This document shows positions 14,702 to 63,238 of a stretch of DNA of 64,000 bases, in pieces (position 1 is the stretch's first letter; every line of letters begins with the position of its first letter). A program made the position numbers and the translations under genes. The notes below the pieces were generated by a model, which worked only from the letters and a program-made list of their open reading frames with translations, was not told the DNA's origin and made no database searches. The stretch comes from Cercospora beticola (taxonomy: Eukaryota > Ascomycota > Dothideomycetes > Mycosphaerellales > Mycosphaerellaceae). The stretch covers positions 124,001 through 188,000 of the forward strand of contig NC_088943.1 in assembly GCF_033473495.1 (NCBI RefSeq). The letters run 5' to 3'.

Positions 14702-17700
14702 GATTATAAGCTCGAGTTTATAGAGAGGCTCTAAGTAGTAAGAGTTAGCCTTCTTATTCTTAAAGTAATACGTATTACCTCTTATAGGACCTATAGTATT
14801 AACTAGATAGAGAAGTAGAAAAAGAGTATAAGAGAAACTAGAGATATATCCTATCTATACTACTTTAAAGCTTTAGAAGATCCTAGTTATAAGCTAGAAG
14901 TCTCTAAAGAGTAGATAAGATAGAGAAAAGTCTAGTAAAGTATACTCTACTTTAAAAAAGAGATATACTAAAAGAGTATAAAGAGGAAAGAATTAGCTTT
15001 AGATTCTAGTACCTAAGTAAATAAGACTAGGCCTAAGTACTAAGTACTACTAATACTTTAGAACTAGCTAGTAGTACTCTTCTAAGAAAGTAGATCTTTT
15101 AGAAGTTCTCTATCTAAGAACCTAACTAACTTCTATAAAAGAGAAGAGTTCTTAGATACTTTAGCTAAGAGAGAAGAGTCTTAGTAACTAGAGAAAGTAG
15201 AAATCTAGAAGCTACTAATTAGATTAAAAGAGCTTATATTTCTAGAGTTTAGATTTGTTTATTTAATTTTATAGAAATAGATTTAATAAGTAAATTAAAT
15301 AGAAGAAGAATACTAATTCTAATAAAAGAGAACTAGAGACTATAGTTTAAGCTATAGGAGAATATACTTAGAGGAAAAGAAATCTTCTAGATAATCTTAG
15401 ACTTAAAGAGATTATTAGTATCTATTCTAGCTAAAGCTAAAGTATCTAAAGCTTTATTAAGTAAAAGGAAAGGTACTATATTTTTAGAGTTTAGCTTAAA
15501 ATAGTAGAAGAATAATATAAAGGCAATCTATATTCTAATAGAAAGTCTTTATATAGATAACTAAGATAAAGTAATAGATAAAATAAGAGTATATAATATC
15601 TAAATAAAGCTATATATAAAATATAGTAAAGTCTAATAGATATATATAATAGCTATTATCTAAGAATTTATAACTTTTAAAATAGAACTAGAGGATATAA
15701 TTAGGAAATTATAGGTCTATCTTAGTAATCTTAGAAGGAGGATTATAGAGATTAACTAGAGAGAGTTATACTATAAGACTTCTAATATAAAGATTAAGTA
15801 TCTACTCTTTATACTTCTAGCTAAGTATAAAAGTATAAGGTAGACTATCTAAGCTTAGAAGAACTTAGACTCTAAAGAAATCCTCTAACTTCTTAAAGTA
15901 GAGGAGTTAATATAGTATAAATACTAGTTATAAGAAATAGTAATATTTACTAAAAGAAGAGGAATCTAAAGTATAAAGCTAAAATACTACTTCTATAAGA
16001 AGGAGTATTTTAGAGATATTACTAAGTATCTATATTTTAATAAAGCTAAGAGAACTATTAACTTAAAATAGGCTAGTAGAGTAGAGAAGAGAAGAATACT
16101 ATCTAGAGAGAATATATTTAAAAGGAGATCTTTACTAAATAAAGAAGTATTAAAAGAAATAGTAAAGAAACTTAACTTAAAAGTCTAATCTCTTAAGAAG
16201 AGATAAACTTTAAGGAAGTTTTCTAAGAAAGTATATACTATCTAAGAAGATATAGAGCCTTCTATAGTATCTAAAGTATCTTAATCTCTATTAGAGGATA
16301 ATAATATTAATAAAGTTATATACTTAACTATAGAAGTAAAAAGTAAGTATATACTATTAAGATAGCTACTTAACTCCTATAATTTATTATATATAACTAA
16401 CTAAGAATTACTTTTTAGAGAACTAAAGTCTTTTTAGAGGAAAAAGTAGATTAAGGTTAGAGATAGCTATCTAATAGCTATATATATAGAAAATATAGTA
16501 ATAGATAGAAGAAGAGAAAAATAGATTATTCTTAAGAATATTCTCTTTATATCTAGTCTAGGAGTAAATCTTGTTTCTTAGAGCTAATTTAGCTAGTAGT
16601 ATAGTATTTAACTGCTAAAATTTATACTTATTTTATTATTTAGGAAACTAGTTATCTAGATAAAACTATTAGGAGGAGTACTATTTATTAAGGAGATTAA
16701 TAATACATTATAGGAGCTTGCAATATTATGCTTTAATTAAAAACAAAAGAATAAAGCCTATACCTTTAAAGCCTAAGAAAAGACCTAAGAATAGTAGGAG
16801 CTTTAGTATAGGAGACTTATATATTTTAGAGAGAGTCTTCTTAGAAACCTATATAAGGTATCTAACTTAAAGGCTTAGATTCCTATTCTAAAGGAATACT
16901 AACCTTATAGAGTATATTCCTTAGTAAAGATAAAGAAATATAGAGAGAAAGAAACTAAGAGGAAACCCTAAAAGTTATCTCTAGTTTCTATTAATATCTA
17001 TAGTTCTTTGCCTATCTTAAGATTAGGATATAAATAGTAGCTTAAGATTATTAATAACTTCTTAAGAAAGAAATAGACTTTCCTAATAAAGTCTAGAGAA
17101 GATATACTAAGTATCCTTAGAGACTAGAAGGTAAAAGCTAAGCTATAATTAGGAAATCCCCTCTAGATTATAAGGAGTAATAGAGTAAGAGAGCTTCTTA
17201 CTATACTAAAGTAGTAGGAGAAGGAATATAGAATTTCCTTCTATATAACTAAAGTATATAACTCTATCTAGAATAGAGTAGTTAAGAGGTTAATCTAAAC
17301 CTTTAAAGACTATATAAGAGCAATACTAGCAGATGCCTATATACCTATTAAATTCTAGCTAGAAGCCTTAGCAGTCTATATAGTTATTAGAAATTCCCTT
17401 CCTAATAGCCTAGAAATTAATAGATTTAAGGTATTACCTAAGGAAGCCTTTTTAGGCATTTAACCCTTAGTATTATACTTTAGAGTTTAGGGTTATAAAG
17501 CAGTAGTCTATATAGATCCTAAGTCCTAGCTAGTAGGGATAAGATTAGACAAACTAATAAATAGAGGCAAAGATACTATGTTTATTAGATATATTCCTAA
17601 TACTACTAAAATATAGCTCTTCTAGAAGCCTAATATAAGAGCTATTAAAGCCTATAATACTACTACTTAGTTTAAGTATAAGAAAGGAGGAGATATAGAG

Positions 17701-20377
17701 CTAAATATTCCTAAGCTTAATTAAGTAAGTAGTATACCTATTAGAAACCTAGTTAGCAGACCTCTAAAGAAGCTAATAGCAGTTGTATCTTCTATAGCTA
17801 CTATACTTATAGCTATAGCAACTAAACCTATAGGTCCTAGCTAAATACTCTTTATATAGTTACTACCTCTACTAAAGGATAAGGAGGAGTACTAGAAGAT
17901 AGAGGATCTAGAAGAAGAAAACTCTAGGGAACTATAACTCTAGTAGGAGAAAAGTAGAACTACTAAACTACCTAAGCTAAGCTAGGAAGTTAATAGATAA
18001 GCTAGTCCTAGTACTAGTAGGAGACTATATTCTAAAGCAAGAGGATTAAATATTATATAGTAGGACCTATAAGGAAACAGAGATTAGAAGAGGAACTAAG
18101 ACTAAACCTATAGCTAAAAGAGAAGGAGATCTGTCTTAGATAAAGAACTAGGCCTAGAGCTAAAAGCTTATAGTATAGTAATAAAATAGGTACTTTAGAA
18201 GAGATAGAGAGAATATAGATAGAAGGAGGAGCCTAGTACTAAGTATTATAAGGCATTCCTAAGCTAAGTCTAAAGCTAAGAATAGGAGTAGATTTAGGAA
18301 GCTCTATTAGAGGTTTAGGAGTCTATATTTATAGCAATTGCTCCTTAAGTCTCTATATAGAGACAAGAGGTGCCTATTCTAAAGTCCTATAAAGAGGCAA
18401 TTTAGGATCCTAAATAGGGATATATATAGGAGGATATAGTCTAAAAGGAACTAACTATATTAAGAAGCAACAATACTTAGATAAAGGTTATCCTACCTAA
18501 AGAAGCAAACCTTATTATATCTAAGTAGGTATTTAATATAAAGAGATTAATTAGTAGAGCTATTAAGAAGTTCAAAGTAAGACTAGTTATAAGAGGTTTC
18601 TCTTAGAAGTTTAGAGTTAATTTCTAGGAGACCTTTATACTAATAGTTAGGTATAATACCTTAAGGGTATTTATAGCTATAGTTTATAAGAAGGATCTAG
18701 AACTCTACTAAGTAGATATAAACAATATATTTACTAAGAGCAAACTTTAAGAAGAAATCTTTATAATTCTACTACTAGGAGTTAAGATTCTACCTAATAT
18801 AGTCCTATAAATCCTAAGAAGCTTATATAGACTAAAGCAAGCAGTAAGAGACTAGAATAAACTCTATATCTTAAAGTTAAAACAGATTAGGTTTATATAA
18901 TTAGAAGTAGACCTATATCTTTTTATCTACTAGGAAAGGAATATTCTAATCCTAACCTATATAGATAATATTCTAATTATAGTACTAAAGCTAGAAGATA
19001 TACTTTAGTTTAAGGAATAGCTAGGCAAAGTATTTAAGATTAAAGATCTTAGAGAACTAGAGAAAATCCTTAGGATAAGGTTAATAAGAAATAGATAAGC
19101 TAGAACTCTAAAGCTTAATTAAGAACACTTTATCTAGAAGAACCTTATAAAGCTAGGAATAACTAAGGAGATAGCTAACCTAACTCTCTTACTAATAGAT
19201 AGTTATAATAGCCTAAAACTAATAGGCTTATATAATAAGAGAGGGAATAAGATAGAGTACTAAAGCTAAACTAGTACCTAGATATAGCCTATAGTTATAA
19301 TAAGACTAGATATTGCTTTCTCTCTTAGAAGGTTAAGCTTATATATCTTAGACCTAACTAAGAGGCATATATAAGCTCTAAAGAAACTAGCAAGGTACCT
19401 AAGGTTATCCTAAGACTTAGAACTAATATTTAGAAGAAATAGAGGAAGCCTAATAGGATATTTAGACTCTAACTATATAATAGACAAAGCAGACAGAGTC
19501 TTAATCCTTAGGAGTATCTTCTTCCTTTATAGAGCTCTAGTTTCTTAGATAAGTAGGAAGCAAAAGTCTGTTATAATATTAATAATAGAAGCTAAGTATA
19601 TAGCTATAAATATATATATAAAGTAATCTTAGTTCCTAGTAGTACTCTTAAAAGAGATAGACTATATAGAGTTAGTAGGAGAGTGCCTGTTCTAACTAAC
19701 TATAAAAGTATATCCTAATATAGTAAGAGAACTAAGGCTAGTACAAATTATAGGAGACAATTAGGTAGCTTTAACTCTTATTAAGAATATATATACCTAT
19801 AAGAGATCTAAATATATTAATATTATATATAACTATATTAGATATCTCTAGTAGTAGAGGAAGGTTATAGTAGAATATATTCTAATAAAAGAGATAGTTG
19901 CTAATAGCCTAACTAAACTAAAGAATAGGCTATAGTTTTAGGAGTTTATAAGATAACTCTAGCTTATATAGGGAAAGGCAAAAGATTTATACCCTAACTA
20001 TAGACTAAACTCTAGACCTTAGAATAATTAATAAAAGATATATACTATAATATTAGAGATATTATAGTAAATATAAAACTAAGCCTAGGAGTTGTACTAT
20101 AGGAGAAGTAGCTTACTATATATAATAAGTAATTAGGATCTAGGAATCTATATATAGTCTAAAAGGAAAAGCCTAGTAGAGAAGTAAAAACGAAGCTATC
20201 TCCCTTATAGTATATACTAGAAGAAGGATTCGTAGATACTAGGCTAAGGAGTTAAACTAAGATAGATTAGGTATATAGCTCTAACTATATAACTATAGCA
20301 CCTAATAACTTATTATAATTTAGAGATAGATTTAAATATAGGAATATAGGTAGAAGACTATCTAGCCTAAGTAGGAG

Positions 20378-20607
20378 TATTAGAAAGTATAGTCTAGTTA
20401 GATATTCTAAGAGATACTTTAGAGATTAGAATTAGGTAATATAGGTTATATAATACTAGATTATATAACCTAGCTAATACCTATCTTAGGAGTAAGATAT
20501 AACCTATAACTAACTAATATAATTAACTCGGTTAGTTCCTACTTATTATTTCTACTTCTACTATATTATATCTATTCGACGAGCGCCTATAAGAATATAA
20601 TTTAATA
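20378..20607 (+). repeat. 3' LTR of Copia A2
   Basis: This 230-bp LTR matches 14472-14701 with transition differences. It is preceded by a purine-rich tract and followed directly by the internal sequence of the truncated copy A3. Confidence 0.9.
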
Positions 20608-21663
20608 TGCCTCTATATTTACTTTTATCTATCTTAGGCTAAACTCTAACTTCTTAAGAGTAGGGAATAGTAATAATAACTTTAATAAACTTAGTATTCT
20701 ATTTTCTATAATTAGTATCTTTTCTTTAGTAATAATCTAATATAAGTCCTTACTAATAAGATATAACTCTATTAGGCTAAACTATAGCTCCTAGCTTTCT
20801 CTTATTAAGACTAGTATAGCTCTTCTCTTTACTTTATATCTACTCTCTAAATCTATTTCTATAAAATTAAATAAATAAATCTAACTCTAGAAAATATAAG
20901 CTCTTTTAGTCTAATTAGTAGCTTCTAGATTTCTGCTTTCTCTAGTTACTAAAACTCTTCTCTCTTAGCTAAAGTATCTAAGAACTCTTTTCTTTTAAAG
21001 AAGTTAGTTAGGTTCTTAGATAGAGAACCTCTAAAAGATCTACTTTCTTAGAAGAATACTACTAGCTAGTTCTAAGATATTAGTAGTACTTAGTACTTAG
21101 ACCTAGTCTTATCCTTTTAGATACTATAGTCTAAGGCTAATTCTTTTCTCTTTATACTTCTTTATTATATCTCTTTTTTAAAGTAGAGTATACTTTACTA
21201 GGCTTTTCTCTATTTTACTTACTTTCTAGGAACTTCTAGTTTATAACTAGGATCTTCTAAAGCTTCTAAGTAGTATAGATAGAACATACCTCTAGTCTCT
21301 CTTATACTCTTTTCCTACTTCTCTATCTAGTTAATACTATAGGTTCTATAAGAGATAATAGATATTACTTTAAGAATAAGAAAGCTAACTCTTTCTACTT
21401 AGAGTCTCTCTATAAACCTAGGCTTATAACCTATTAGACGAGAGCGTCGGATAGGCTTATATTATAGGTATAATATATAGTAGAAGTAGAGGTAATAAGT
21501 AGGAACTAACCGAGTTAATTATATTTATTAGTTATAAGTTATATCTTACTTCTAAGATAGATATTAGCTAGGTTATATAACCTAGTATTATATAACCTAT
21601 ATTACCTAATCCTAATCTCTAAAGTATCTCTTAGAATATCTAACTAGACTATACTTTCTAATA
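20608..21663 (-). mobile_element. Truncated Copia family A copy A3
   Basis: About 820 bp of gag-end sequence is followed by one LTR (about 21432-21663), all in minus orientation. It aligns with A1 from about 7.77 kb to 8.82 kb but with more differences and several indels, so it is an older or separate subfamily member. The rest of the element (pol and 3' LTR) is missing to the left, where A2 abuts. Its LTR ends exactly where the Copia B RNase H sequence begins, so A3 most likely inserted into element B. Confidence 0.8.
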
Positions 21664-22100
21664 GGATCTATATTTTCTTTCTAGTAAATATACTATTTAT
21701 CTAGAAGTCTAGTAAGTAGTCTATTATTACTATATTATTTATAGAAATAGAATATATAGTAATATTATAGGTAGCTAAAGAAGCTATAGTAATTACTTAC
21801 TTACTCTATAATTTTAAGTACTAGAAGCCTATAGAGCCTATTATATTATATAAAAATAATAAGCTAGCTATTAGTATTAGTACTAATAGTAAGTCTAATA
21901 CTTATACTAAGTATATTAATATTCGTTACTACTTTATCTAAGAGGCTATTAAGAATAGTTAGATTAAAGTTAAATAGATTTCTATACTTTATTAAAAAAT
22001 AGATAGCTTTACTAAAATACTCGATAAGATTAAGTTTAAAGCCTTTATTAAATAGCTTAGCTTTACTAACTATATAGAGTTTATTAAAGAATAGTAGATA
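21664..22100 (+). mobile_element. Ty1/Copia element B, RNase H and C-terminal end
   Basis: One plus-strand frame from 21665 reads as the Copia RNase H end. It contains the strand region before EIEYIVIL, then VAKEAIVITYLLYNF, YKNNKLAISIS, TKYINIRYYFI, IDSFTKILDKIKFKAF and a terminal LSFTNY. The order and spacing match the C-terminus of Copia polyproteins (T/SEAEY, EDNKGA, KHIDIRYHFIRE and ADxFTKxL motifs). It begins exactly at the A3 LTR. It is best read as the other half of the element at 9900-13800, displaced by nested insertions. Stops are of RIP type. Confidence 0.8.
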
Positions 22101-48454: not shown

Positions 48455-50157
48455 GTTGATCTTGCTGTATTGGGAAATCTGGCAGCCGTATCGCGTGCGT
48501 GCACGACATTATATTCATTTGGAGGCCTGCTTCCAAGATCATTTCGACACACTGCTTCGGCGAGTATAGTGTTTCCCGAGACGCTGCAATCCCCGTAGAC
48601 CTTTTGGATGTCGTGCACGAATGCGAGGAGACGCCAGTATAAGATCAGTAAGGCCGAGGTCCAGAAGACCGTACTCGCTGCCCAGCCAGCACTACGGCTT
48701 TCTGAGCGTCCGCCTCGAGGCATTGAGCTGGGGCTAAGCAAGTAGCGTCAGATGGTAAAGACAGATCGTGCTTGGTTCCATGGGGTCCATCGGAGACAGG
48801 GTCTGCTACATGAGATTCAGTAATCGCTATATAGGAGGAAGTCAACGTTGGTCAGAAGCCAAGTAGTTGGCGATCTTGGCAGATACCTAAATTGGTATCC
48901 GGTTTACCACGACACCTGGTCAGCGGTCGCGTGCCTCGTATACATGTTGGTCGGGCGTGTGAACAGGACTTCGATGCTCGGCCGATGGATTGATCTGTCT
49001 CTATGGCCCAGATGATAGTATACGTTCACTGGCAGACGAGGCTCCTTCATTCAACCAGATCATGCTTGGCATTGACAACCAGCGACCGTTGATTGCCGAG
49101 CATGGTGTAAGCTGCGAGAACCCGGCGCATCCGGTCTCTCAAGAAAAGATTAGTGAGACGGCAAACAAGCAGGCTGGCAGGCTTGGTCGACGAAGCACGG
49201 GAAGTGGAGGTCCGGGCCTGCAGACTTTGGTAAGGTGCTGTGCACGATCATCACAAGAACGGCAGTCGGCCACCTCTGAAAGAGTCCGTAGACATTGGAG
49301 CTCTCCGGAATCAACGCAGTAGAGACTGTTATCAGAGCGGCTCATCGCGCTACCAGAAGCCAACAAAACGGCCGGATTCGAGCTCCCAGTGCGCGTTCCG
49401 TCGCAACGAGTGCTCGTCGGATCAGCCGATATCAGATGTCCTGAGCTGCAATCAGTCTGCCAAACCAAGCGAATAGCTATGAACGACCTATACTCCCCTG
49501 TGGAAGCAGCTCTGCAGCACGACCGTAGAGCAGACGTTGACCAGTTTGCCGCTGTAACGAAGGGGGAAAAGTTGACAGAGCTGACACTATATGCATTTAG
49601 CCATGTTTGTTCGCAGAGCTCGAGAAGCCTGACGAGGGGAAGCGGAGTTATGGTCTTCCTCCCATTACCAAGACCCCGAGCGAGAAGACGTAGTTCCAGA
49701 ACTCAAAGTTCGCGGGAATGCCAGCACCCAGGACACGACAGGGATTCGCATGCACGAAAGCAGTGGTGACGGAATGAGGCCGCGATTTCTTGTTGAAAGC
49801 GTTCAATTGATAGCCTAGCTGAGCATTGCGTTGACCGGAATGTGCAAGATCAACGCAGACAAATGCCAGGATTGGCGACTGCCATGGCAGCAACGATAGT
49901 CCAGACCATGTCGCCTATTGTCGTGAGGCACTGAGCGTTCTCCACGGCTCCGTGAGAACGACTGAACAACAGGAGCGCTTAAGTCCGTCGATCCGAGTTT
50001 ACTAAGCAGGGTGTGGGTGGAGCAGTACTGCTCGCATGGTATTCCCATCAAATCCATCCGTAGATCGAATATAGAACGCCGCAGAATCACGGCCACTGGG
50101 CAGGACCCAAAGGACCTCCGCCACGTCAACATCGATCACTCCCAGTAAACAGCAAAC
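48455..50157. other. 1.7 kb without a supported gene
   Basis: This lies between the divergent GH3 and FAD-monooxygenase genes. Minus-strand frames at 48436-48845 and 49648-50132 are short. The second contains phrases such as NFEFWNYVFSLGVLVMGG that could be a decayed membrane-protein end, but I cannot assemble a gene. Confidence 0.35.
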
Positions 50158-51489
50158 ATGAGTACGACAGCAGAATTCCACGTAGCCATCGTCGGAGGCG
50201 GGCTAGGCGGTATCTGTCTCGGTCTCGCCTTACAGCATCGCAATATCCCCTTCACGATCTATGAATCTCGTGCTGAATTCAGTGAGATTGGAGCCGGAAT
50301 AGTCATGGCCGCTCACGCCGTCCGGGCTCTCCAGCTCTGCGAACCGTCGTTGGCTGAGAAGTTTCATGCCTTGGTTGGAAACAACGATGCAGCTCCAGCA
50401 AGCCTATCAGTCCGGAACGAGCTGCGTTATGGAGTCTCGCGGCATCGACACGAGGACAGCGAGGTGATTCACCAAGTTGTAAGGTCTCGCACAGGGGCCA
50501 GAACCGTGCATAGGAATGAGTTGATGACCATGCTGGCGAAAGATTCGGAAGCAGGATGTGCGCAATTCAACAAACGACTGACAAGTTACGAGCACAAAGA
50601 TGGTCGTGTGGAGCTGAAATTTGCCGATGGCACAGCAGCGTCGGCCAACCTGCTGGTGGCGATGGACGGGATCCACTCGAGCGTGCGAACTTGCATGTTT
50701 GGCGCGCAGAGTCCTCTGAGCAAACCCATTTACAGCGAGTGCCTCGCCTATCGAGCCGTAATTTCCATGGACAGATACATCGAGGCTTTTGGCGTGCCAG
50801 TCACACACTCCACGATCCGTCTCGGGCCAAAGAAATTCCTAATCAATTACCCAGTGTCCGGGGGAACACAAGTCAACTGTGTTGCTTTCATGGACAAGTG
50901 CGGCTCAGGCGAAGAATGGCCTCATACCGAGTGGATAATTCCGAGCCAGAGAGAACAATTAAGGCGAGACTTTCAAGGTTTCGGCCCAGGCGTGCAGAAG
51001 ATCTTAGATGCGATGGAACTCACCGATCCCTCAGTCTGGGCTTTACACCAGCACTCCGCTCAGCCCGATAGTTTTGTGGACAATCTGGTGATCCTCATGG
51101 GCGACGCAGCGCACAGCATGCTTCCACATCTCGGGGCTGGAGCCAGCCAAGCAATCGAGGATGCATATGTCTTGGCGGAGACGCTTGCAAGCCCTACTTT
51201 ACGATGGGGTCCAGTGTCCGCAGAACCACTGCACGAAGCACTTACTGCGACGGAACAAGCTCGTAAACCTCGTTTCTCAGAGGTCCAGAGACTCTCGAAA
51301 GACAATGGACGCAGATTTCTCGATTTTGTGGACGAAAAGCTAGAGCGACAAGCGTTGCAGGAGTGGCTTGACGAGTACGAGAGGCGTTTCGACTGGCTCT
51401 GGGATTATGATGTGGCTGTCGATGCTGTCAAAGCCAGGGAGCTGCTGGAGCAATCGCTGCAGAAGACTGAGGACGTGAACAAGAGTTGA
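50158..51489 (+). CDS. FAD-dependent monooxygenase, salicylate hydroxylase-like
   Basis: The protein has 443 residues in a single exon. The FAD-binding Rossmann motif VAIVGGGLGGICLG lies at residues 9-22, followed by a beta-strand Glu (IYESR). A DG motif (LLVAMDGIHSSVR) and the GD motif with the flavin-ribose site (LMGDAAHSMLPHLGAGASQA) define class A aromatic-ring hydroxylases. These use NAD(P)H and O2 to hydroxylate phenolic or other electron-rich substrates, commonly in aromatic catabolism or secondary metabolism. The DG motif has AMDG instead of the usual GADG. It is followed about 520 bp downstream by a methyltransferase on the same strand, a pairing typical of tailoring steps. The substrate is unknown. 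Confidence 0.9.
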   Translation: MSTTAEFHVAIVGGGLGGICLGLALQHRNIPFTIYESRAEFSEIGAGIVMAAHAVRALQLCEPSLAEKFHALVGNNDAAPASLSVRNELRYGVSRHRHEDSEVIHQVVRSRTGARTVHRNELMTMLAKDSEAGCAQFNKRLTSYEHKDGRVELKFADGTAASANLLVAMDGIHSSVRTCMFGAQSPLSKPIYSECLAYRAVISMDRYIEAFGVPVTHSTIRLGPKKFLINYPVSGGTQVNCVAFMDKCGSGEEWPHTEWIIPSQREQLRRDFQGFGPGVQKILDAMELTDPSVWALHQHSAQPDSFVDNLVILMGDAAHSMLPHLGAGASQAIEDAYVLAETLASPTLRWGPVSAEPLHEALTATEQARKPRFSEVQRLSKDNGRRFLDFVDEKLERQALQEWLDEYERRFDWLWDYDVAVDAVKARELLEQSLQKTEDVNKS

Positions 51490-52011
51490 TCGTACCATAG
51501 TGTTGCCGATGGACGAGTTTACCGCAATTTTTGAGATTCGATGAGATGCGTGGAATGGGCTTTGAAGTCGAAGCTTGAGGCCAGAGTTTGAAGTAATAGT
51601 TCCGCATGCTGGTATAAATCGCGAGGCTGCTACGAGCAGGAAATCAAGCACGACGTATGCTGTACAATGGAGGTTGTGAAAGTACGTCGATTCTGAGCAC
51701 GACGCAAATTCCTCGCTCCAGGCTAGCACATATTGCAATGCGGCTGGAGATCGCCTTGCTTGCTCTTCGCCGTAGCTCCAAGTTGCGGAGAGTGGGCCGG
51801 ATTCTCGGATTCCGCCGGCCTTTTGTGAATACTGGTACAGAGCCGTCCAGCATTCAGCTGATCCATTCATTCGCTCATGCACATTCGGCCAATGCAAGTG
51901 GGTCCATTCACTACGTTGGTGCCTCTGCAGTATTTGAAAGGTCATTCCTCGCGACTGACAACCGCTGCAGCAAACACCGAGCTTCTTCGTGGCCAATTTC
52001 CGCAGTTTCGA

Positions 52012-52716
52012 ATGAACATGGCGCAGACACAGAACGCAGACCTATTCTCCAGCATCGGCGAGCAATACGAAGCCGCCTTCGGCCACGACCAAGGTCTTCT
52101 GAAGTTCACACAAAAGGTCTTGGAGCACCTGAAACCCAACTCGCACATCCTTGATGTCGGATGCGGTACCGGAAAACCAGTGGCAACGACCGCAGCAGAA
52201 GCTGGACACAAGATCACCGGAATCGACCTCTCGGAAGTCATGGTCGAGCTCGCCTCGAAAGCAGTTCCGACCGGTACCTTTGAAGTTGCCGATATGCTCA
52301 CCTACCAGCCCAAGGACATCAAATTTGATGCTGTCTTCAACATGCTCTCGCTGTTCCTTCTCCGCAGACAGGATGTCGAGTTGATGGCAACCCGCTGGAA
52401 CTGCTGGCTTCCACTAGGCGGAATTCTGGCAATCGGCACTGGCGCCGCAGAGGATGTCCACCCAGAGAAGCTCGAAGTTCAGTATGATGAGGATGGTGCT
52501 TGTGCTCGAAAGATGCCATTCGAGTTTATGGGAAAGCCCATCACGATCGACATGTTCACGAGAGCAGGATGGGAGAAGTTGCTTGTTGACGCAGGTTTCG
52601 AGGTCCTGTACACCACGACGGATGTCTTCGTTCCGCCTCCAGAGACGGGGTGCCAGACTGAGCCACACTACTTCATCATGGCGAAGAAGATCAGGGAGCG
52701 TGGCGATAGCGAGTGA
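52012..52716 (+). CDS. SAM-dependent class I methyltransferase
   Basis: The protein has 234 residues from the ATG at 52012; a second ATG follows at 52018, and the frame is open further upstream without protein-like sequence. Motif I (ILDVGCGTGKPVA) binds S-adenosylmethionine. It is followed by GIDLSEVMVELA (acidic residue contacting the ribose) and FEVADMLTY; a later FDAVFNMLSLFLL corresponds to motif post-I/II. The C-terminal part (AGWEKLLVDAGFEVLYTTTD) is typical of small-molecule methyltransferases. The acceptor cannot be read. Together with the FAD monooxygenase just upstream it could hydroxylate and then methylate a metabolite; that is inference from position. Confidence 0.85.
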   Translation: MNMAQTQNADLFSSIGEQYEAAFGHDQGLLKFTQKVLEHLKPNSHILDVGCGTGKPVATTAAEAGHKITGIDLSEVMVELASKAVPTGTFEVADMLTYQPKDIKFDAVFNMLSLFLLRRQDVELMATRWNCWLPLGGILAIGTGAAEDVHPEKLEVQYDEDGACARKMPFEFMGKPITIDMFTRAGWEKLLVDAGFEVLYTTTDVFVPPPETGCQTEPHYFIMAKKIRERGDSE

Positions 52717-54006
52717 AGGGCTTTCCAAAGAATGCCAGCAGATTCGTCAAAACAGAGCTGGGGAAATGATAGGAGCGAGAGCAACCGCGCCAATGATCCT
52801 GGCTGCCGGATTTTGCGAGCTATGCGGTGTAGACTCAGATTTGATGAATTCACGTCGTGGAATGCTGACTTCATGTTCTTTTCACTGATGCGTCGTTGAG
52901 AACCGCCCGCGGGCCGCTACAGCACCGTAGCATATTCATTAGCAGTTGTCAAGACGCGCTTGAATGCTTGCTTGCTGTATGTGATCGTGCCTTTTTTTCA
53001 GGACGTCAATGTAGCTTCATCTGCGCTCTGTTGCGTGCGTGTCTGAAGATCGGCTTCAACGGGAGGTCTCGCTGAGAGGCGGCTGTGGCCTGCACTGGGC
53101 AAGATCAGAGGACATCGTGTATTCCGGGAGTGAATACTTGGTAGAGAGCGGAGCGGAGTGGGAAGAGGACAGGAGCAGCAGAGTCGGAGCTGGGAGCGGA
53201 GGTTGGAGCAAGCACGGAACGGCTCGCGCGGGCACGGCCCGTTCTCCGCCCGCTGCAGTCTGAGATCGAGACGAAGATGCAGATGCACAACTTCATCGAC
53301 ATCAACCAGCGCTGACCACGCCCAGAAACTTCTTTACATTCCTGTCACAGCGAGCTCATATCGCAATTGGAGACCTTATAAGGATTCTGCGGGAGATGTT
53401 CCGGCACTGTGACCAGCCCCGCCTTGCGCTGAATATCCCGAGCCCTCGTATGCGCCGAACAACAGAGCGCCGCAGTCCCGGTAGACGCCGATGACATCCC
53501 TTGCACGACCGAATCGGTTCTTTTGAAGATGAACCTGAAGCGCAGACGGCCCTGCTCCAGTATCGTTGAATGAGGAAGTCCCCATTGTTGCGAGCACAGC
53601 ACAACAGCTGCTCGGCTGGCGGCATACCGGACCGCTGCCACCGCTGCCTGCTCGGCGATTTGACGTCAAGGTTCTCCTGGTTCAGCCTTGAAATTCGTGC
53701 GTAGACTTTCGACGAGGGCTAGAATAGGGCGCTGTATATACGTCACGCGAGACCGATCTCATGAATGCATGCTATTGACAGGTCGGACTGGAGTAAGCTC
53801 ACTCACCAGCTCTTGGCAGTTGTGATAGCCACCCTTAGCTCTAGGGCTATACGACTAGGCGCATTCGCCGAGATGCAGCAATGCAGCCTTTATCAAAGAC
53901 CCTCGCGCATCCCCCACAATCCTGCAGATCTGGATTTGCAAGCTTTACTTTTCCCCGTCTGTTTTCATATTTCAATTCCATTCATCACGGGAGCAGGTCT
54001 CTCAAA
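52717..54006. other. 1.3 kb without a supported gene
   Basis: Minus-strand frames at 53345-53669 overlap in all three phases, so none is convincing. The region contains the promoter and leader of the peptide-precursor gene at 54007; the leader is pyrimidine-rich (CTTTTCCCCGTCTG). Confidence 0.4.
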
Positions 54007-54744
54007 ATGCTTTACAATGTCGTCTTCACTGCAGCAGTGACCCTTCTGGGAACCACGGCTTCGGCCGCACCAATTGGAGCAAGTCTCCTGGACCTCAGCG
54101 CCCAGTCATTCTCCAAGTCTTTGAACTCGCGTGGAGAGAGCGATGGACCAGTGGTGAGCACAATTGATCACTCGCATTACTTTTCGATCTGCAAAGCTGA
54201 CGTCTTCAAGGTGGTAGACGCTCTTGACCCGGAGGCCAAAGCGAACTATGAGTTCTTCAAATCCTATTTTGATTCGGTGGGTGACCGGCAAATTGATGCA
54301 TTTGCTTGCTCGCCCGAAGACTAAAACCTCTGTAGGAAGTGAACAAGCGCGACGCTGATGCGGAAGCTTATGCCGATGCTCTGCGCCTTATCAACCTGGT
54401 AAGTGAGCATTGAAGCTACGCAGGCTCAGTATTGTGATCAAGAACTTACGCCCTAGCAGCCTGCCAGTCTAGGTGTCTCCACTGATGAGGATGGCAATCT
54501 GATCACCCGTGAGGCCGAGGCTGACCCTTTCTGGGACACAATCAAGAACCTCTTCAGCAACTGGGATGGCTCGCGAAGCGGAAAGCGTGACGCTGCGCCT
54601 GAACCTTTCTGGGATACGATTAAGAACTTTTTCAGCAACTGGGACGGATCTCGCAGCGGCAAGCGTGACGCCATGCCTGAGCCAGGATTCTGGGACTCAT
54701 TTAAGAACTTGTTCAGCAACTGGGATGGATCTCAGAGCGGATAG
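54007..54744 (+). CDS. Secreted precursor of repeated Kex2-processed peptides
   Basis: Three exons are joined across introns 54277-54335 (59 bp) and 54399-54459 (61 bp), giving 205 residues. MLYNVVFTAAVTLLGTTASA is a signal peptide; about 70 residues of pro-region follow with one Cys. From about residue 93 come processing signals: NKR then DADAEAYADA, an R followed by EAEADP, and then three copies of a peptide (FWDTIKNLFSNWDGSRSG, FWDTIKNFFSNWDGSRSG and GFWDSFKNLFSNWDGSQSG). Copies are separated by KR and preceded by X-Ala/X-Pro dipeptides (DAAPEP, DAMPEP). This is the layout of Kex2/Ste13-matured pheromone-type precursors. The core lacks the paired Cys/Trp of known filamentous alpha-pheromones and forms an amphipathic helix pattern. 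It could be a signalling, antimicrobial or host-directed peptide, or a RiPP core. The intron 2 acceptor is a TAGCAG tandem that would add one Gln. Confidence 0.85.
54526..54741 (+). repeat. Peptide-coding 78-bp tandem repeats
   Basis: Units run 54526-54603, 54604-54681 and 54682-54741 (the last partial, with one inserted Gly codon). Most differences between units are synonymous third-position changes, for example ACA/ACG, ATC/ATT, GAT/GAC, TCG/TCT and CGA/CGC, while the peptide is nearly constant. That pattern points to selection on the peptide and not to recent duplication. Confidence 0.85.
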
Positions 54745-55227
54745 GGTTACTCCCGAGAGCCTTGAGTAAACCGCGCCGCTTCGAGAATGGTCTGACGAAG
54801 ATACGACATCTGTACGCATTTGGAGACTATCGGCTGGTACGATATCTTACGAAACTTTGAAATGAAGCATCTTTACGACACTAGTGAGCTCCCATTTTGC
54901 ATGCAACAACATCACCCCATGAGTCGCTGCTTCTCGCTGTACTGATTTTGATAGATCGACCGCTTGATTGAACAACGAGCGACGGTAATTTGGACGTGTA
55001 TTCGCCGACGGCGGATATTACGCGTCAGCCGAAGCCTTTCCGTGATAGGAAGCCACTGCTGACGAGTCGGACTTCACTAGCGTCGACGCCACCCTATTGT
55101 ATAGCGCCAAGGTGATGAATACATACGCCACGACTTCTTCAGATCTCAATTACAATGCTTGTTTCCGGCTTCAAGGCTTTTCCACAATGCTTGACCACTG
55201 CGATCGTTGACATTGACTTCTTGACAG

Positions 55228-55788
55228 CACCGCATCGAGGTCGCACGTTCGGCTTGGTCCCAAGGTCACGACATCGACGGCGACAATTATCCCGATCCTT
55301 TCATCGACATGAGACTACTCTGCGGCGTCAGCGATGTTCAACGACACGCAGTCAACGGACTGGAGCAATGCTGTGCTGAGAGTGCCCAGTTGAAAGAAGC
55401 GAAAACTTCCATAGGCTGTTTTCATTACTGCCACACGCATCTGACCCAAGTTCAATTCAGCTCCTGCGTCCAAGAATTCCTGACCTTCGATGATGCTTTT
55501 GCTGTGCATTGCACTTCGGGAAGCGATCCCAAAGACTTCCTGTTGGTGCATCGATCTGGGACGGGACTGGGCTTCATGTATGCATTCGGACTCTTGCTGC
55601 TATTTATTATCATCTTCACGAGATGGCAAGGCAGCTTCTCCCGGGCAGAAGTGCGCGAAGGGGTGACTTACTTCAAGCAACGATTAAATCTCGGCGACAA
55701 AGAATCTCGTGCTGCACGCTGTTCAGGCAGGGGAGGATTGGCGTTTCAAAGTAGCGGGCAGGCGAGAATGGAGCAGGAGGATGTTTGA
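55228..55788 (+). CDS. Cysteine-rich protein with C-terminal membrane segment (partial model)
   Basis: A frame open from a plausible acceptor (TTGACAG, ending 55227) to 55788 reads HRIEVARSAWSQGHD, then a cluster of seven cysteines (LLCGV, EQCCAES, IGCFHYCHTH, SSCVQ, VHCTS). One membrane helix follows (FMYAFGLLLLFIIIF) with a basic tail. The cysteine cluster resembles small disulfide domains of fungal surface or secreted proteins, but I cannot name it. I could not fix the first exon; upstream ATGs at 55111 and 55155 lead into other frames. It lies about 0.5 kb downstream of the peptide-precursor gene on the same strand. A functional link is only a possibility. Confidence 0.4.
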   Translation, partial: HRIEVARSAWSQGHDIDGDNYPDPFIDMRLLCGVSDVQRHAVNGLEQCCAESAQLKEAKTSIGCFHYCHTHLTQVQFSSCVQEFLTFDDAFAVHCTSGSDPKDFLLVHRSGTGLGFMYAFGLLLLFIIIFTRWQGSFSRAEVREGVTYFKQRLNLGDKESRAARCSGRGGLAFQSSGQARMEQEDV

Positions 55789-56263
55789 CCGGGGCGAAGA
55801 ATCGAACGGATGACGACTGCTACGCTTTTACGGAGAGTTACACAACTGCGTGCATGAAGACTTTACTCGCACGAAAGCAGATCGTCACCACTGGAGTGGG
55901 AGTCGCGCCCATGCGTGGGCTGACAACACAACCCAGCGGCGGAAGTGGACGAGTTGTCTCGAGGTCTGTACAGAGAGGGTTTTGAGGATACAAGCCTGGT
56001 CTGATAAACATCGGTCGTTATTGCTCGGCAGAGCGAGATCGAACGTTTAATTTTTGTCGCTGTCGGTCTCTGGATCCGGAACGGATGGAAAGTGTTGCGA
56101 ACACCCCCATCCGATTGCCACGCGTCCTCCTGCTAAGTTCTATGCAGCCACATTCCCGTGGCCCAGGACTTTAATGATGCTCAGGGACTTGTACACTAAT
56201 CTGGGAGTCACTGGTGATGGCAAACGGCGGCCAGCAACAATAGGTCCTCGGCATTATTGTTTT

Positions 56264-58875
56264 CTACTCAGGCTTCACACCAGTAAAGAAACCTGCCTTG
56301 TGCAGGTATTCAACGTTCGCCCGAACAGCCGCCTCGACATCCTTCGAATCGGACTCTGCACCAACGTCCTTGGCGCGGCATCGTCGCCTTGTGAGCAATC
56401 CGCGTCCAGACTCCAGGGAGTCTGCAAGCGGCCAAAGCAAGTGGTCGCTCGTATCCTCCATGTCGAACTTCACCTTTTGGAGCCACACATCTCCAGTCTC
56501 CTCCATGAGCGGGATTGCAAGCACTTCAGAGACAATACTCCAGAATTTACCGACGCTCAATCCATCCAGGACGTTCAAAGTCGTGCTTGAAGAAGAATTG
56601 AAGTCGAGTAAAGTCAAGACGACAATCCGCTCAGCAACAGCATCAGATTGCGCGACAAAAAGCCACTGGTCACGTTCGTCGGCGTTGAATGCACCGATTC
56701 GTGCAGTGGCCCACACAATCCGCCACAGGTAATCATCTTGATTCGCGAGACCATGCTGCCGGCCACCGATCAAGTATGCAGGACAGACGACGCTGATCGA
56801 CTTGTCCGGAAGCGCGGATCGGACGTTGTGCACTAGTCGTTCTGCTACAAATTTTGTCTGGGCATAACCGTTGTCTTTGGCGGCGTCGGTATACAAGGCT
56901 TCGAGGTCTTTCTCGGCGTCTTGTGCAGGGTTGGGATATCGACCTCCCGATACAAACACAAATCGCTCCAAGTGGTGACACGTTCTGACCAGCTTCAGCA
57001 GCTCCTCAGTGGAGTGCACGTTGGGTGCTTCGAGGTCGCTGTAGCTTTTCGTCCAGTTCACGACAGCACCACAATGGATGATTGTGTCAATGCGAGGGCC
57101 GCCAGCATCAATCTTGTCGCCTTCTCCAGATAGTCTCATCCAGTCGGCATCGGAAAGTCCCAGTCTAGGCTTTGATAAGTCTCCGGGCCAAGTATTAAGC
57201 TTTATTTGATGAGATGATTCTGCATGTGCAGCAGTCAAGGCCAAACGAACCCGCTCCAGCGCCAGCTCTCGTCTAGAAGTCCGCACTAGTACTGTCATGG
57301 ATGCAATGCTGCTCGATGACAAAAGCTGGCACAGGATCTGTACGCCCAGATATCCAGTCGCTCCGGTCAGGAACACATGCCGCGGACGAGTTGGTTGGAC
57401 CACACTGGGGTTCAGCACTGTTTCAGTATGCCTTGCGACTCGTACTTTTAGAAATTCAATCTTCGTATCGACATCATTGCCAGCCATATCTGTAATCAAA
57501 TCTTGCTTTTCGATTTCGAGAAGCACTGCGAGCTGCCTTACCGTCATGCCAGGTTGGCTGAGGGTCTCGAACAGGATCTTACAACCGAACTGCTTCCGGA
57601 TCAAAGCAACAAGCCTCATAGTTTGCGCTGAGTTGATTCCGATGTCAGTCAAGCGATTATCATGCCCACTGATGGATTTCCAAATCGTCGACCCTGCTGC
57701 AGAGATGATGTCTGCAATCAAATTCGACACCTTCATGGCTGACTTCTCGGATGGCAAAAGGCGTGTGCCACTGAGAGCAGTAGAGACGTGCATGAAGCCC
57801 GGCACCGAGCCTGCTGAGACTTCATTATCGGAAAGGCATTTTTTGAGACGGGTCCGATCGATTTTCATGGTGGGCGTGAATGGCATAGTCTCAACCACGA
57901 TCAATACACTTGGGAGCATGAAAGATGGTATGAGATTCTGCAAGTACTCCGTGACAGCCGGCAAACTCAAAGTCAAGGCGGTCTTGTTGGCAGCACGAGC
58001 ATGTCGACTCGCCAGAGAGGTCGCACACGTTGATTGTGTGATAGCGACCAGTCGGTTCGCATATGGCCCGTCAGCAGGGTAGATGACAGCACAGTGGCTG
58101 ACATCGGGATGCCGGGAAAGTTGGCTTTCGATATCTCCCAGTTCAACCTTCTGACCTATCGCAAGAAATCAGATCAACAATCAATAGAGCCTGTGTGAAG
58201 CTGATACTCACCATTGACTTTGACCTGAAAGTCTTTTCGCCCGACGAATTGCAGGGAACCATCTGACATCTGGCGGAAAAGATCACCCATCCGGTATGCA
58301 CGCGAAGTCCATGGTGTGTGAGGTTTCTCGATCAACCCCTGCGAGATCCATGCTTGAGGCACCGGCAAAAACACTTCTGCCGTCTTTACAGGGGCGTTGA
58401 GATATCCTCTGGCCATTGTAGGCCCGGAGATAACCAGGTCTCCCACAGCCCCTACAGGTAAAATGACTGCTGGATCGTCTGGGTCTACAATGCAGGCCAA
58501 GCAGCTCGGCAGGCGATGTCCTACGTTCAGAATATCAGTCTCATCAGAGACGTCTCGAGCGTGAGTGACATCGACTTCGGCAGATCCATAATTGATCCCG
58601 ACTCGTGACGACTTCCGCCACTTGCGCAACGTCGATTCCTTGATCGCATCTCCTCCCAACGTGACATATTTGAGACTCGGAACAGTCGCGGGATCCAACA
58701 ATTCGGCCACGGCAGGAGTCAATAACGCCCAATTGGCTTGCGACTTCTCGACGAATGCTGCAAGACCATTCTTTCGGTCGGTCTCAGATGGAACGCAAAC
58801 GCAACCACCCACCAAGAGCGTCGTGAAGAAGTCTGCGATATTCGAGTCAGTAATTAGATAGGATAATGCTGTGTA
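56264..58875 (-). pseudogene. NRPS-like adenylation-thiolation-reductase gene lacking its 5' end
   Basis: Two visible exons are joined across a 56-bp intron (58156-58211). The frame opens mid-adenylation domain at DSNIADFFTTLLVGGCVCVP and continues with INYGSAEVD (A5), ISGPTMARGYL (A6), YRMGDLF (A7), GRKDFQVKVNGQKVELGDIE (A8) and A10. A thiolation domain follows (DIGINSAQTMRLV, phosphopantetheine Ser), then a thioester reductase (FLTGATGYLG and YAQTK). Such A-T-R enzymes activate a carboxylic acid and release it as an aldehyde or alcohol. The first half of the A domain (A1-A3, ATP-binding TSGTTGKPKG) is absent. Instead the frame meets a TAA at about 58881-58883 within the end of the GT2 gene. 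As it stands, activation should fail. The remaining domains look intact, so the loss seems recent. Confidence 0.82.
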
Positions 58876-60757
58876 CTGAATACCTTACCCAGCATTGGAC
58901 AGGCACCCAAGTAGCCACCACAATCTCGAACAAGCGGATTATAAGCCCTGTGAGGTAACAGCTGTTCTGCGACTGCCCATACGCGGCCGGATATACGATG
59001 GCGATGAGTTGGGTGATTAAGGCAACAGCAGCAAAAACCCAATACAGCGTGTGCAGCATTATCAGCGGGTCTGACATCCTCTTCCATAGGCTTCGGCGCT
59101 TCTCCTCAGATCGTTCGTTCAGAGGCGATTGAAAAGTACCAGAAATTGTAAAATCGATCTCCTCTAGGTTGCACCATAGCGATTGACAATAGGCACAGAC
59201 AATGTATGGCGTTATCCACAAACGATTGTTGGAGAGATTGAAGATGTTTCTCACACCGACGTGGCCGAAGTTCAAGCGTTTCCAGGCCTTTGTCGTGAGC
59301 CACATCGCCAAGTATGAAAATTTCAGTAATCTCAGCATATTGTGTGACATGTTCGACCTGGGCACGAGGGGAGGCCTCGCGAGCGGTAGTCCAAGCGGCA
59401 GAGCGACCATAGGCACGATGAGTGCAATCCAGGCATATGTCTTGATGGACTGCATAATTCCGTGGAGCCTCTGGACCACAGTGATCTGCGAGTGTGTGAA
59501 GTGTGGCAAAAAGAAGTAGAAGCGATGGGCGCTAAGCAGGTTGCCCGCGGTCTGCGGCGTTGTAAGCAGGTAGAACCATGTAGATACATAAGAGAATTTC
59601 TTACCCAGCGCATCCGCTGCGAAACATAGGCATGAAACGACTCACAAGTGACACCAAATTGTAGCTCGTCCTCGATGAACGCCGTCTGCCAGCCCGCCTG
59701 ATTGAGTAGATATGAGCATAGGATGTCCTCTCCGATATTGACGAGTGGCCAGCCCCCAATGCTCTCCAATGCTGCACGCCGCATCACGTAACCTGAACCG
59801 TGGCACATACTGCATCCAATGCGGTCTCGTGCTGGCTCCAAGACTTGTTGCAGGACACTCGCGTCCTGGGCGAGGATGTCCTTGTCTGGTACGTTGTAGA
59901 AAGATTGTGGAGGGCTCACGACGGCTAGATCGGCAGATAGTATGAGGTGAGGGACCACCCGTGAAAGCCAGTCAGACTCCACGATCATGTCGACATCGAG
60001 TCCTGCAATGAATTCAGAGCCGCCATAATCCTCCTTACTTGTTCTGATGCCGAAGTCGAGGTTGCCCGCCTTGTGATAGTGACGTGTAGCCAAATCCTTC
60101 TGTCGGGCCAAATAGACGACGGGTTGCGCGCTGAGCTTGTTGGATATGCTTCTGTTGAAATTTTCCACTTCCAGCTTGAGCTTGGGATCATTAGCATCAT
60201 CCAGCACGAAGACCCTATAGCATTTCGCAGGATAATCTTGTGCGACTGCGCCTGCCAGCGTACTCATCACAGTCGCAGGACTCTCGCCGCAGGTGCTATT
60301 CAGTCGTCAGCAGGCACGAGCCAGCTTTGATTTGACAAGCCATAGCATACGTGATGAAGACATGTACGAGAGGCGCATCTGTGCCATCCAGACGGTACTG
60401 TGCTCTCGGAGCATCTCGACTGCCCGGTAGTATGGAAAGACTGAGCTCGATGACCTGGAATAATTCTGGACCGGCCATAATCGCCTCGCATGCCAAGAAA
60501 AGCCAGGTAACCCATTCTCCGCGTGAATGTAGATCTGCATCAGCTCGAAGAGGATCGTAGAGTCGAAGACCGTAGTGCACAAGCCAGCTGAAGCAAACAA
60601 GTGCGTGCACAATCCTGGCGTAAGCGGAACCTGAGTGAATGGCGACTTTCGGTACTGGAGCTGCGGTTCTTCGAATCTTGTACTTTCCAACCGACCTCAA
60701 CTCCTCGCAAGCAGATTCTGGTTCAATAGCCTCCTCTTGTTTCATGAACAGCTTCAT
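58847..60757 (-). CDS. Membrane family 2 glycosyltransferase
   Basis: Three exons are joined across introns 60296-60350 (55 bp) and 59552-59604 (53 bp), giving 600 residues. There are two predicted helices in the first third. The GT2 catalytic set follows: VFITTCGES, YRVFVLDDAND (first Asp), FIAGLDVDMIVE (DxD, about 229), VNIGEDILCSYLL (acidic base) and QRMRW (362-366, the QxxRW motif). Several membrane helices then follow (TYAWIALIVPMVALPLG, LHTLYWVFAAVALITQLIAIV). This is the cellulose-synthase-like architecture of processive fungal GT2 enzymes that make and extrude a polysaccharide; the sugar is unknown. A related fungal type-2 glycosyltransferase is needed for hyphal growth on surfaces in Zymoseptoria, but orthology cannot be judged here. 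The last about 29 bp overlap the truncated NRPS-like frame. Confidence 0.88.
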
Positions 60758-61573
60758 GATGGTCTAAGCATGGCCACTTCGCTGTGTGTGGAATCGGACG
60801 TCTCAAAAATGCCAACCGACCATCATCAAAATCTGCACCATTCTGCATGAATGCCAGGCTTTTGGGCAGATTTCGAGTCCGCAGTCTTACACCCGCAGAG
60901 ACCATGGAGCTTCGATTGCCCGTGTGGTACCGCAAATGCTCGCAACAGATCTTGGGCATCCTTGAACACGACAGTGCAGCTCATGATGGCGGAGATGGCG
61001 GTGTGTAGGAAAGGGCCCGATGCTACGATGCACTTACCAGGGTACTTTCCAATTGTTCGTCGTCAGTGTGAGATTTACAGCTAATGAATCCTACCGGAAC
61101 TCCGTTGGGTCTCCGCCCGGAAACATCCGAGGTCGACAACATGGCAAATACATTCTCCATTCTAAGCTTCTACTCCGCACGATGCGAGACTGGAAACACG
61201 TGCGTGTCCCACATTGTCACAAGAAGAAGAGTTTAGCGCTGCACGCACTTAAGCGAGCGAGAATGATGGCACGATAGCGTGCGTTGTTAGGCGTGCCTAG
61301 AGTTCCAACTTCTGCACGCAAGAGCACTGATCGAGCTTTATCGACCTGTCAGCGTTCACGAGAACGATAGAATGGTAGATGCGCAGTCATTCGGCCTCGA
61401 TCAGCGGGAGCCACCAGTACCGCACTGTTGTCGTAGCTCTGTGATGAGATCTGTTCGAGTTGACCGCCACCCTAGGGCAGTGCGAACAGTGTATGTTGGA
61501 GATTCCAGGCTCAGGATCGATTTGAACAAATTTATTGCATTGTTGCGGGACATTACCTCACCTTCGACACGAG
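60758..61573. promoter_or_regulatory. Divergent promoter region between GT2 and P450
   Basis: These 816 bp separate the leftward GT2 gene from the rightward P450 gene. No coding sequence is supported. A shared promoter could co-regulate the two genes, which would suit a gene cluster, but I see no clear repeated motif that would identify a regulator. Confidence 0.4.
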
Positions 61574-63238
61574 ATGGCTCTGACAGGACTCATTCTGTCA
61601 GTCGTAAGCTTCGTGGCACTTTACAAGTTTCTCTTATATCCGCTGTTACTCAGCCCACTTGCACGAATACCGGCAGTACACCCTCTGGCCAAGATCTCAG
61701 GGCTATACATGCTATGGGTACGATATTGGGACTGTGAGAATGCAATCGTTTTCGCTGCCCACAACAAACATGGCGGAGTTGTACGTCTAGGACCGAACGA
61801 ACTGTCGATCAATTGCATTGAGGATGGCGTCAAAACAGTCTATGGGAGGAACTTTGACAGGCACGACTTTTACCGCGTATATGAAGATTGCGGACGGCAG
61901 AATCTATCCTCGAGCCTCGATGCTTTCTCTCACACGATTCGGAAGAAAAGGATCACTCATGTGTATTCGAAGTCCTATCTGCACTCATCGCCAGCAGTGG
62001 TAGCCCTTATCGACCGAGTCGTCCGACAACGATTTCTCACCTTGATCACCGCTTGTGCTCGGGAGGAGAAGGCATTTGATACAATGAAGATTCTTTCCGC
62101 GTTGGCATTGGATATGGTGCTTGGATACACATTTGGCGTAGGAAACGCCACAAACTTCTTGAACAACAGTACAGAGCACTCGAAATGCATTGAGAGGATC
62201 CATACTGGCAGACCTTACCCAATGATGTTCTGGTTACACGAGTTTCCAAGGACAGTCGACTTCCTGGAACGAGTCGGTATTCTTTCCAAGGAGCGATACC
62301 AGAGCCTGGAAGCCTTACATGTGTTTTGCATCCAGATGTGCCATCGTGCTGAAGCTGCGTTAGTCGACGCTCATGCAACGGCCACAGCAGAGGATGTCCC
62401 AACAGTATATCAACAGTTCAAGAGATCCTTAGATAAGGAAGGCATAAGCACCCTGCCATCCCTGAGAGCATCTTCTAGGCTTCGCGATAGTGGAACAATC
62501 TCGTGCTCACCGCAGCAACTGGAAATTGCGGCAGAAGTGGGCGATCAAATTCACGCCTCGGACGAGACTCTCTCCATCACATTGACCTATGCCATTTGGG
62601 AACTGTCCCGAAACACGGGAACGCAAGACAGACTCCGGCATGAATGTCGACTACTAGGAAACAACGTGCATGTCAGCTCCGCGACTCCACTTCCAACAGC
62701 CAACGAGATTGATCGGCTACCATTGCTGCATGCCATCATGATGGAAACAATGCGAGTCCAACCCATCGTAGCAGGTGGACAAGCCCGTGTGACACCGTTC
62801 GGCAAGACGAGCACACTTGGGGAGTATGACAACATACCCGGAGGCTGCAGAGCGCAGTCATACGCTCGGTTTCTGCATCTCAATCACGAAGTCTTCCCTG
62901 AGCCTTTGGCCTGGTATCCTGAGCGGTGGCTGGAAAAGCTCGACCCGAACGTTCCAGACCAAAAGATGAGATGGTTCTGGGCGTTCAGTTCAGGCGGGCG
63001 AATGTGTCTCGGAAGCCACTTTGCGCAGCTTGGTTAGTGTATTCTTTGTATCTTGGAGACTTCTATGCTAATAATTATCACAGTGATGAAGTATGTACTG
63101 TTGCTGATATACTCAAACTTCGAGACATTCGTGGTAGATGACAATGGAATTGAGCATATGGAGGGTTACGTGGGCGGCCCTAAGTCCGGCCGTCTTATGG
63201 TTGGTGTTCGTAGAGCGGCATGGCCATCCGAAGGATGA
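61574..63238 (+). CDS. Cytochrome P450 monooxygenase
   Basis: Two exons are joined across a 51-bp intron (63033-63083), giving 537 residues. The N-terminal helix (LTGLILSVVSFVALYKFLLY) anchors it in the endoplasmic reticulum. P450 signatures appear in order: I-helix oxygen-binding HASDETL, K-helix METMR (ExxR), the YPERW region and heme-binding FSSGGRMCLG, with the thiolate Cys at about 478. Fungal P450s of this sort (CYP60s-like in overall look; subfamily not assignable) hydroxylate or otherwise oxidise secondary metabolites. The start at 61574 is chosen because it precedes the membrane helix; the frame is open 39 bp further upstream. It is convergent with the next gene, with only 78 bp between stops. 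Confidence 0.92.

Follow-up and report, generated by a model that had tools for sequence, protein, structure and literature searches.

The gene at C9:178007-178744 of a 10-contig, 36.07-Mb genome, positions 54007..54744 (+) of the window (the 64,000-nucleotide stretch of Cercospora beticola DNA analysed here), raises the question of what is released from a precursor that is built like that of a mating pheromone. Judged by its layout, the precursor is probably cut, in the manner of yeast mating-pheromone precursors, into several short Phe/Trp-rich peptide copies. Our preferred reading, at a probability of about one half, takes it for a Kex2-processed repeat protein (KEP) so far found in Cercospora alone, from which linear amphipathic peptides are released to act outside the cell.

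The position and strand given in a preliminary description of the locus were correct, but the two introns that it proposed became three (57, 59 and 61 nt, all GT..AG), on which the two annotated orthologues are concordant. Exon 1 (54007..54153, +) holds the start codon, common to both annotated orthologues, the predicted signal peptide (about residues 1-20) and the beginning of the pro-region. Both orthologue proteins run continuously across the junction left by intron 1 (54154..54210, +; 57 nt). The splice model and the orthologue alignment place exon 2 (54211..54276, +), which encodes pro-region (VVDALDPEAKANYEFFKSYFDS), intron 2 (54277..54335, +; 59 nt) and exon 3 (54336..54398, +), which encodes EVNKR, an X-Ala run and the start of a spacer. 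Intron 3 (54399..54459, +; 61 nt) is followed by exon 4 (54460..54744, +) with the end of the spacer, three leader-plus-core units and the stop codon. Removal of the three short introns leaves an open reading frame of 186 codons plus stop, and the frame and introns are supported because the annotated C. kikuchii and C. berteroae proteins agree with them. Intron 3 ends in a tandem splice acceptor, TAG-CAG, at 54454-54459, and the C. berteroae annotation has one extra residue at the same junction.

From the N- to the C-terminus the precursor consists of a predicted signal peptide, the pro-region, Lys75-Arg76, the X-Ala run, the spacer LRLINLPASLGVSTDEDGNLITR and the three leader-plus-core units. 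The signal peptide of about 20 residues was judged by eye from a hydrophobic N-terminus and an SAA-like cut site; in the C. kikuchii orthologue a helix is modelled, with low confidence, at the N-terminal residues 3-17. The Kex2 site Lys75-Arg76 (54345..54350, +) is followed by the Ste13-type X-Ala run DADAEAYADA (54351..54380, +), which reads DADAEADADA in both orthologues. Behind the spacer, Arg109, a lone basic residue, and the leader EAEADP (54508..54528, +), identical in all three species, precede core unit 1, FWDTIKNLFSNWDGSRSG (54529..54582, +). A KR site with the leader DAAPEP (54583..54606, +) then introduces core unit 2, FWDTIKNFFSNWDGSRSG (54607..54660, +), and another with the leader DAMPEP (54661..54684, +) introduces core unit 3, GFWDSFKNLFSNWDGSQSG (54685..54741, +), with the stop codon directly after it. 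The unit starts are spaced 78 and 81 nt apart. A second, unrelated peptide might come from the spacer (54381-54510), which likewise stands behind KR and an X-Ala run.

The Lys-Arg sites (residues 75-76, 134-135 and 160-161) and the leaders EAEADP, DAAPEP and DAMPEP that the preliminary description had read in this layout were recovered, and with the repeat units they support its proposal of a KEP or pheromone-style processing plan. Two of its claims held in part. The three copies of a single sequence are indeed three tandem units, but they are not identical, unit 2 having Phe at position 8 and unit 3 an extra N-terminal Gly. Similarly, KR stands before the leaders of units 2 and 3, whereas the leader of unit 1 lies behind a single Arg (LITR, then EAEADP) and not behind Lys-Arg. 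The missing dibasic site in front of this leader counts against the model. Some Xaa-Arg sites are cleavable by Kex2, and the invariance of Arg109 and EAEADP in all three species is consistent with a cut at such a site; the preceding residues are TR here and in C. kikuchii and PR in C. berteroae (LIPR).

Umemura's rule for KEPs asks for at least three repeats in tandem, each 8-100 aa long and bounded by Kex2 sites (PMC7329392), and a hand check found three post-KR fragments with one 18-aa unit each. The repeats make up 29% of the protein (3 x 18 of 186 aa), above the 15% repeat-length threshold of Le Marquer et al. 2019 (PMC6339444). The genome has one match to the Kex2-type domain P_proprotein and five, two of them strong, to the Ste13-type domain DPPIV_N.

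We infer the processing from the layout, which is read most simply as the release of linear peptides. The precursor would enter the secretory pathway, where Kex2 would cut behind KR and, less certainly, behind the lone Arg ahead of unit 1. A Kex1-type carboxypeptidase would trim off the KR and a Ste13-type peptidase would strip the EA, DA, AP, EP, DP and MP dipeptides, so that two 18-mers and one 19-mer would be exported as linear, unmodified peptides. Outside the cell, residues 1-12 would fold into an amphipathic helix, one face of which carries Phe, Trp, Ile and Leu, ahead of a polar DGSxSG tail.

The properties of the core agree with such a helix. Positions 1, 5, 8, 9 and 12 are hydrophobic, as previously claimed, with Trp at position 2 besides. 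At 100 degrees the hydrophobic moment of residues 1-12 is 0.617 in unit 1 (9 of 5000 shuffles as high) and 0.625 in unit 2 (6 of 5000), and that of GFWDSFKNLFSNW is 0.533 (31 of 5000). Over its full length the 18-mer is no more amphipathic than many of its shuffles (moment 0.291, reached by 1391 of 5000), as would suit a helix with a polar tail attached. For the C. kikuchii orthologue, AlphaFold2, given a two-sequence alignment, places helices on all three cores (115-125, 140-151 and 169-178), at low confidence (block pLDDT of about 44-59 at the core helices, mean pLDDT 40.8). The proposed amphipathic helix is thereby supported by the shuffle control for residues 1-12 and, weakly, by this orthologue model.

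Amphipathicity together with two Trp and two Phe could also indicate antimicrobial or membrane-lytic peptides, one of the roles suggested earlier. That role found little support, as the net charge of the core is 0: cationic antimicrobial peptides are both net positive and amphipathic, and this core is amphipathic over residues 1-12 but neutral. In the ten units of the three species, by hand count, 3 of 12 polar and 2 of 6 apolar positions vary; lysis alone would not call for polar positions to be kept about as well as apolar ones, as they are here. We regard an antimicrobial or lytic function as very unlikely.

The units were said to differ mostly at silent positions. This holds for units 1 and 2, with differences at 9.0 of 9.5 synonymous and 1.0 of 44.5 non-synonymous sites (Fisher p 2e-9, rounded counts), and less so for units 1 and 3 (5.0 of 9.2 against 4.0 of 44.8; p 0.004, rounded counts) and units 2 and 3 (4.5 of 8.7 against 4.5 of 45.3; p 0.013, rounded counts). 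Per site, non-synonymous changes are fewer than synonymous ones in all three comparisons, and the core is conserved between units, not diversified. Since synonymous changes between units 1 and 2 far exceed non-synonymous ones per site, the core units are, on these counts, under purifying selection, with the synonymous sites of units 1 and 2 near saturation. Acting on polar and apolar residues, such selection would argue for a specific partner over plain lysis. Units 1 and 2 (54529-54660) differ at nearly all synonymous sites, yet unit 3 is synonymously closer to each of them; the gap between units 1 and 2 may reflect either an old duplication or selection against DNA identity of tandem copies. 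A counterpoint is that the aligned proteins of the three species show no stronger conservation in the core than in the pro-region (3 of 54 variable columns against 3 of 56, the core count omitting the extra C. berteroae unit, which lies in a gap and adds one further change). The three core-adjacent leaders are invariant in the three species.

Conservation of the frame in sister species, which the preliminary description had left to be checked, was confirmed by two annotated orthologues. The C. kikuchii protein CKM354_001294000 (186 aa, 3 units, in a cluster of 3 member sequences) aligns with the gene model gaplessly at 96% identity, and the C. berteroae protein CBER1_08718 (213 aa, 4 units) is longer by a unit of 26 residues and by a single residue where exons 3 and 4 meet. 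A protein search that reaches only proteins sharing exact five-residue words gave, at E<=1, only 2 matches among 584 candidates, the C. kikuchii and C. berteroae clusters, and the repeat region as query (E<=10) gave no relative beyond these two among 153 candidates. Searches of the 36.07-Mb genome for a second copy, with the core and with the pro-region, returned only pieces of the gene itself. The two orthologue proteins match Pfam and NCBIfam families only below the cut-offs, and tRNA and Rfam scans of the window gave 0 matches each. Of the 10 core units in the three species, the one that closes each precursor has a distinct GFWDSFKN form; terminal and internal units have thus remained distinguishable through changes in the number of internal ones.

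Could the gene simply encode the alpha-type mating pheromone of Cercospora, its core too far diverged to be recognised, whose 18-mers would bind the Ste2 receptor of the opposite mating type? The precursor shares with ascomycete alpha-pheromone precursors a pro-region, KR sites, XA/XP leaders, near-identical repeats in a fitting number and a peptide length within 9-24 aa (PMC6339444). The Ste13 signature is described as generally dedicated to alpha-pheromones in Ascomycota (PMC6339444), and the genome holds a STE2 match that is free of stops and spans positions 1-279 of 280. The alpha-pheromones described for dothideomycetes are of two types, with two cysteines or with PYGxPxG (PMC6339444), and all 10 units in the three species lack both. 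The earlier statement that the core has no cysteine-type pattern is therefore correct and extends to PYGxPxG. In addition, a pheromone would be expected to follow its receptor through the whole family, and relatives of this precursor were found only within the genus.

The search for another alpha-pheromone gene in the genome covered cysteine patterns, with 100 of 285 CxxxGQxC and 100 of 148 WCxxxGxxC matches listed. The matches outnumber those of the reversed-pattern controls (WCxxxGxxCW 5 against 0, CxxxGQxC 285 against 93, WCxxxGQxC 9 against 3, WCxxxGxxC 148 against 103, CxxxGQPC 13 against 2). With only KR counted as a Kex2 site, the frames at 27 loci (5 WCxxxGxxCW, 9 WCxxxGQxC and 13 CxxxGQPC) contained no KR-separated motif repeats, nor did 20 chosen regions, 19 from the 100 CxxxGQxC matches listed and one from WCxxxGxxCW. 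Among those listed (100 of 285 CxxxGQxC, 100 of 148 WCxxxGxxC), no two matches lay within 2.5 kb of each other, so that they reveal no tandem array, and a pheromone-like protein query, run without a positive control, gave 0 matches. The alpha-pheromone explanation stays alive because STE2 is present and these incomplete searches yielded no other alpha-pheromone gene; we nevertheless consider it quite unlikely.

The neighbouring genes invite the idea that the core is modified after translation. Upstream lie an FAD-dependent monooxygenase (FAD_binding_3, 50149-51489; best NCBIfam match salicylate 1-monooxygenase, below cut-off) and a methyltransferase (51862..52716, +). Downstream are a frame of 187 codons (55225-55788, +) with, by eye, a cysteine-rich stretch and one hydrophobic segment and with 0 Pfam and 0 NCBIfam matches, a thioester-reductase-ended NRPS-like enzyme (from 56264), a family-2 glycosyltransferase and a P450 (61526-63037). 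The monooxygenase, methyltransferase, NRPS-like, glycosyltransferase and P450 genes at 50149-63037 form a possible secondary-metabolite locus. The C. kikuchii methyltransferase relative CKM354_001294100 is 76% identical over 61% of the query, and by the consecutive locus numbers CKM354_001294000/CKM354_001294100 its adjacency to the precursor looks conserved.

A dikaritin or UstY-type RiPP cluster, to whose precursors (ustiloxin, phomopsin type) the KEP layout bears a likeness, was considered and is unlikely, as the nearest UstYa gene (PF11807/DUF3328) among the matches listed is at C9:91494-92045, 86 kb away, with none in the window, and the core has no EDYXI. UstYa-type genes lie on average 3.09 genes from the precursor in Umemura's survey, yet beside only 22% of KEPs (PMC7329392). 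The genome has at least 63 UstYa (PF11807) matches in 36 Mb, counted exon by exon, which suggests many dikaritin-type loci. The core might instead belong to a non-UstY RiPP precursor modified by the neighbouring monooxygenase, methyltransferase and P450, as the proximity of these and the NRPS-like gene and the methyltransferase adjoining the orthologue in C. kikuchii, judging by locus tags, would allow. The distance of 86 kb to UstYa among the matches listed speaks against this too, the methyltransferase has relatives in other fungal genera where no KEP relative was found, and the NRPS-like enzyme would be a simpler reason for the clustering of the other genes. Because of those methyltransferase relatives we take the neighbours to be a metabolite locus separate from the precursor. 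Modification of the core is, in our view, very unlikely.

For unmodified peptides, several roles outside the cell can be weighed. Structural or surface-active peptides, coating hyphae or interfaces in the manner of repellents instead of signalling, would suit a product that is amphipathic, neutral, aromatic-rich and multi-copy. Rep1 of Ustilago maydis is a KEP whose amphipathic peptides affect hyphal wall properties (PMC6339444, PMC7329392), and it is also tied to aerial growth in the title of a work cited in PMC7329392. Rep1 is a basidiomycete protein with 37-aa peptides (PMC6339444), likened here by description and not by sequence, against only 3-4 copies of 18 aa in Cercospora, and we hold a repellent-like role to be unlikely. 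Our leading guess is an environment- or host-directed peptide that would bind either a surface receptor or a membrane; a self-signal unconnected with mating comes close behind in likelihood.

We lean towards a role against host or environment because of the genus restriction, the location 178 kb from a contig end and some 30 kb from an AT-rich block of repeats, and the density of effector candidates on the C. kikuchii contig. The contig of the C. kikuchii orthologue has 2,357,730 bases, and a C. kikuchii contig of the same size carries effector-candidate genes at a density of 1.23 per 100 kb, where the largest contig has 0.60 (PMC8496228). Within the window, two 6131-nt arms (2694-8824 and 14472-20602) are 97% complementary, lie in DNA of 21-30% GC and end in repeats of about 225 nt, with a further short copy at 21475-21664; they resemble a pair of decayed LTR-type elements inverted relative to each other. 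A self-signal would be compatible with the features that favour a role against host or environment. In its more specific form, as a genus-specific, cysteine-free, unmodified helical hormone or host-directed peptide that takes the pheromone protease route for a non-mating purpose and has its own receptor or plant target, the preferred reading is tentative and falls well short of even odds.

Candidalysin is an amphipathic peptide. Its precursor, Ece1 of Candida albicans, is likewise Kex-processed and yields a membrane-active peptide, which differs in its length of 31 aa (PMC5784256 / PMC11323794) and in its non-identical repeats (PMC6339444); the likeness is again one of description, not of sequence. 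KEPs in general are secretory precursors, as the Cercospora protein is predicted to be, and share with it tandem cores, KR/RR sites, Ste13-type leaders and a repeat number that varies between species (PMC6339444, PMC7329392). The core is unlike the KEP motifs printed in the text of PMC6339444, where motif 1 is given as a figure only: DADAATXYV[A/V]D, YVW[G/A][G/S], SPPHKT, QKLKVD, EDYXI and XSDW. It differs from ascomycete alpha-pheromones in its lack of paired cysteines or PYGxPxG and in having relatives found only within the genus. The processing layout is already known, and it is the core for which no precedent was found.

The proposal of a new peptide family is in keeping with the absence of a database relative outside Cercospora, and FWDTIK, NLFSNWDG and the orthologue locus tags are not printed in the literature searched. 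From its sequence, the family of the core peptide looks new. Le Marquer et al. 2019 excluded peptides conserved only within a genus from their analysis of conserved peptides, and their first filter drops the C-terminal fragment (PMC6339444); by our own reading the 3-unit form would miss that filter, which needs three non-terminal repeats. The gene would be easy to pass over for these two reasons. The functions of KEP peptides are largely unknown (PMC9769878). The present peptide is small, easily synthesised and predicted down to single residues, and it is conserved in three Cercospora genomes, among them that of C. kikuchii, a pathogen of soybean. It would thus show cleanly whether processing of the pheromone type is used for plant interaction, or for signals other than mating, as well. 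If the more specific form of the reading, a genus-specific hormone or host-directed peptide without a part in mating, is true, Cercospora leaf pathogens would have a second pheromone-style peptide channel.
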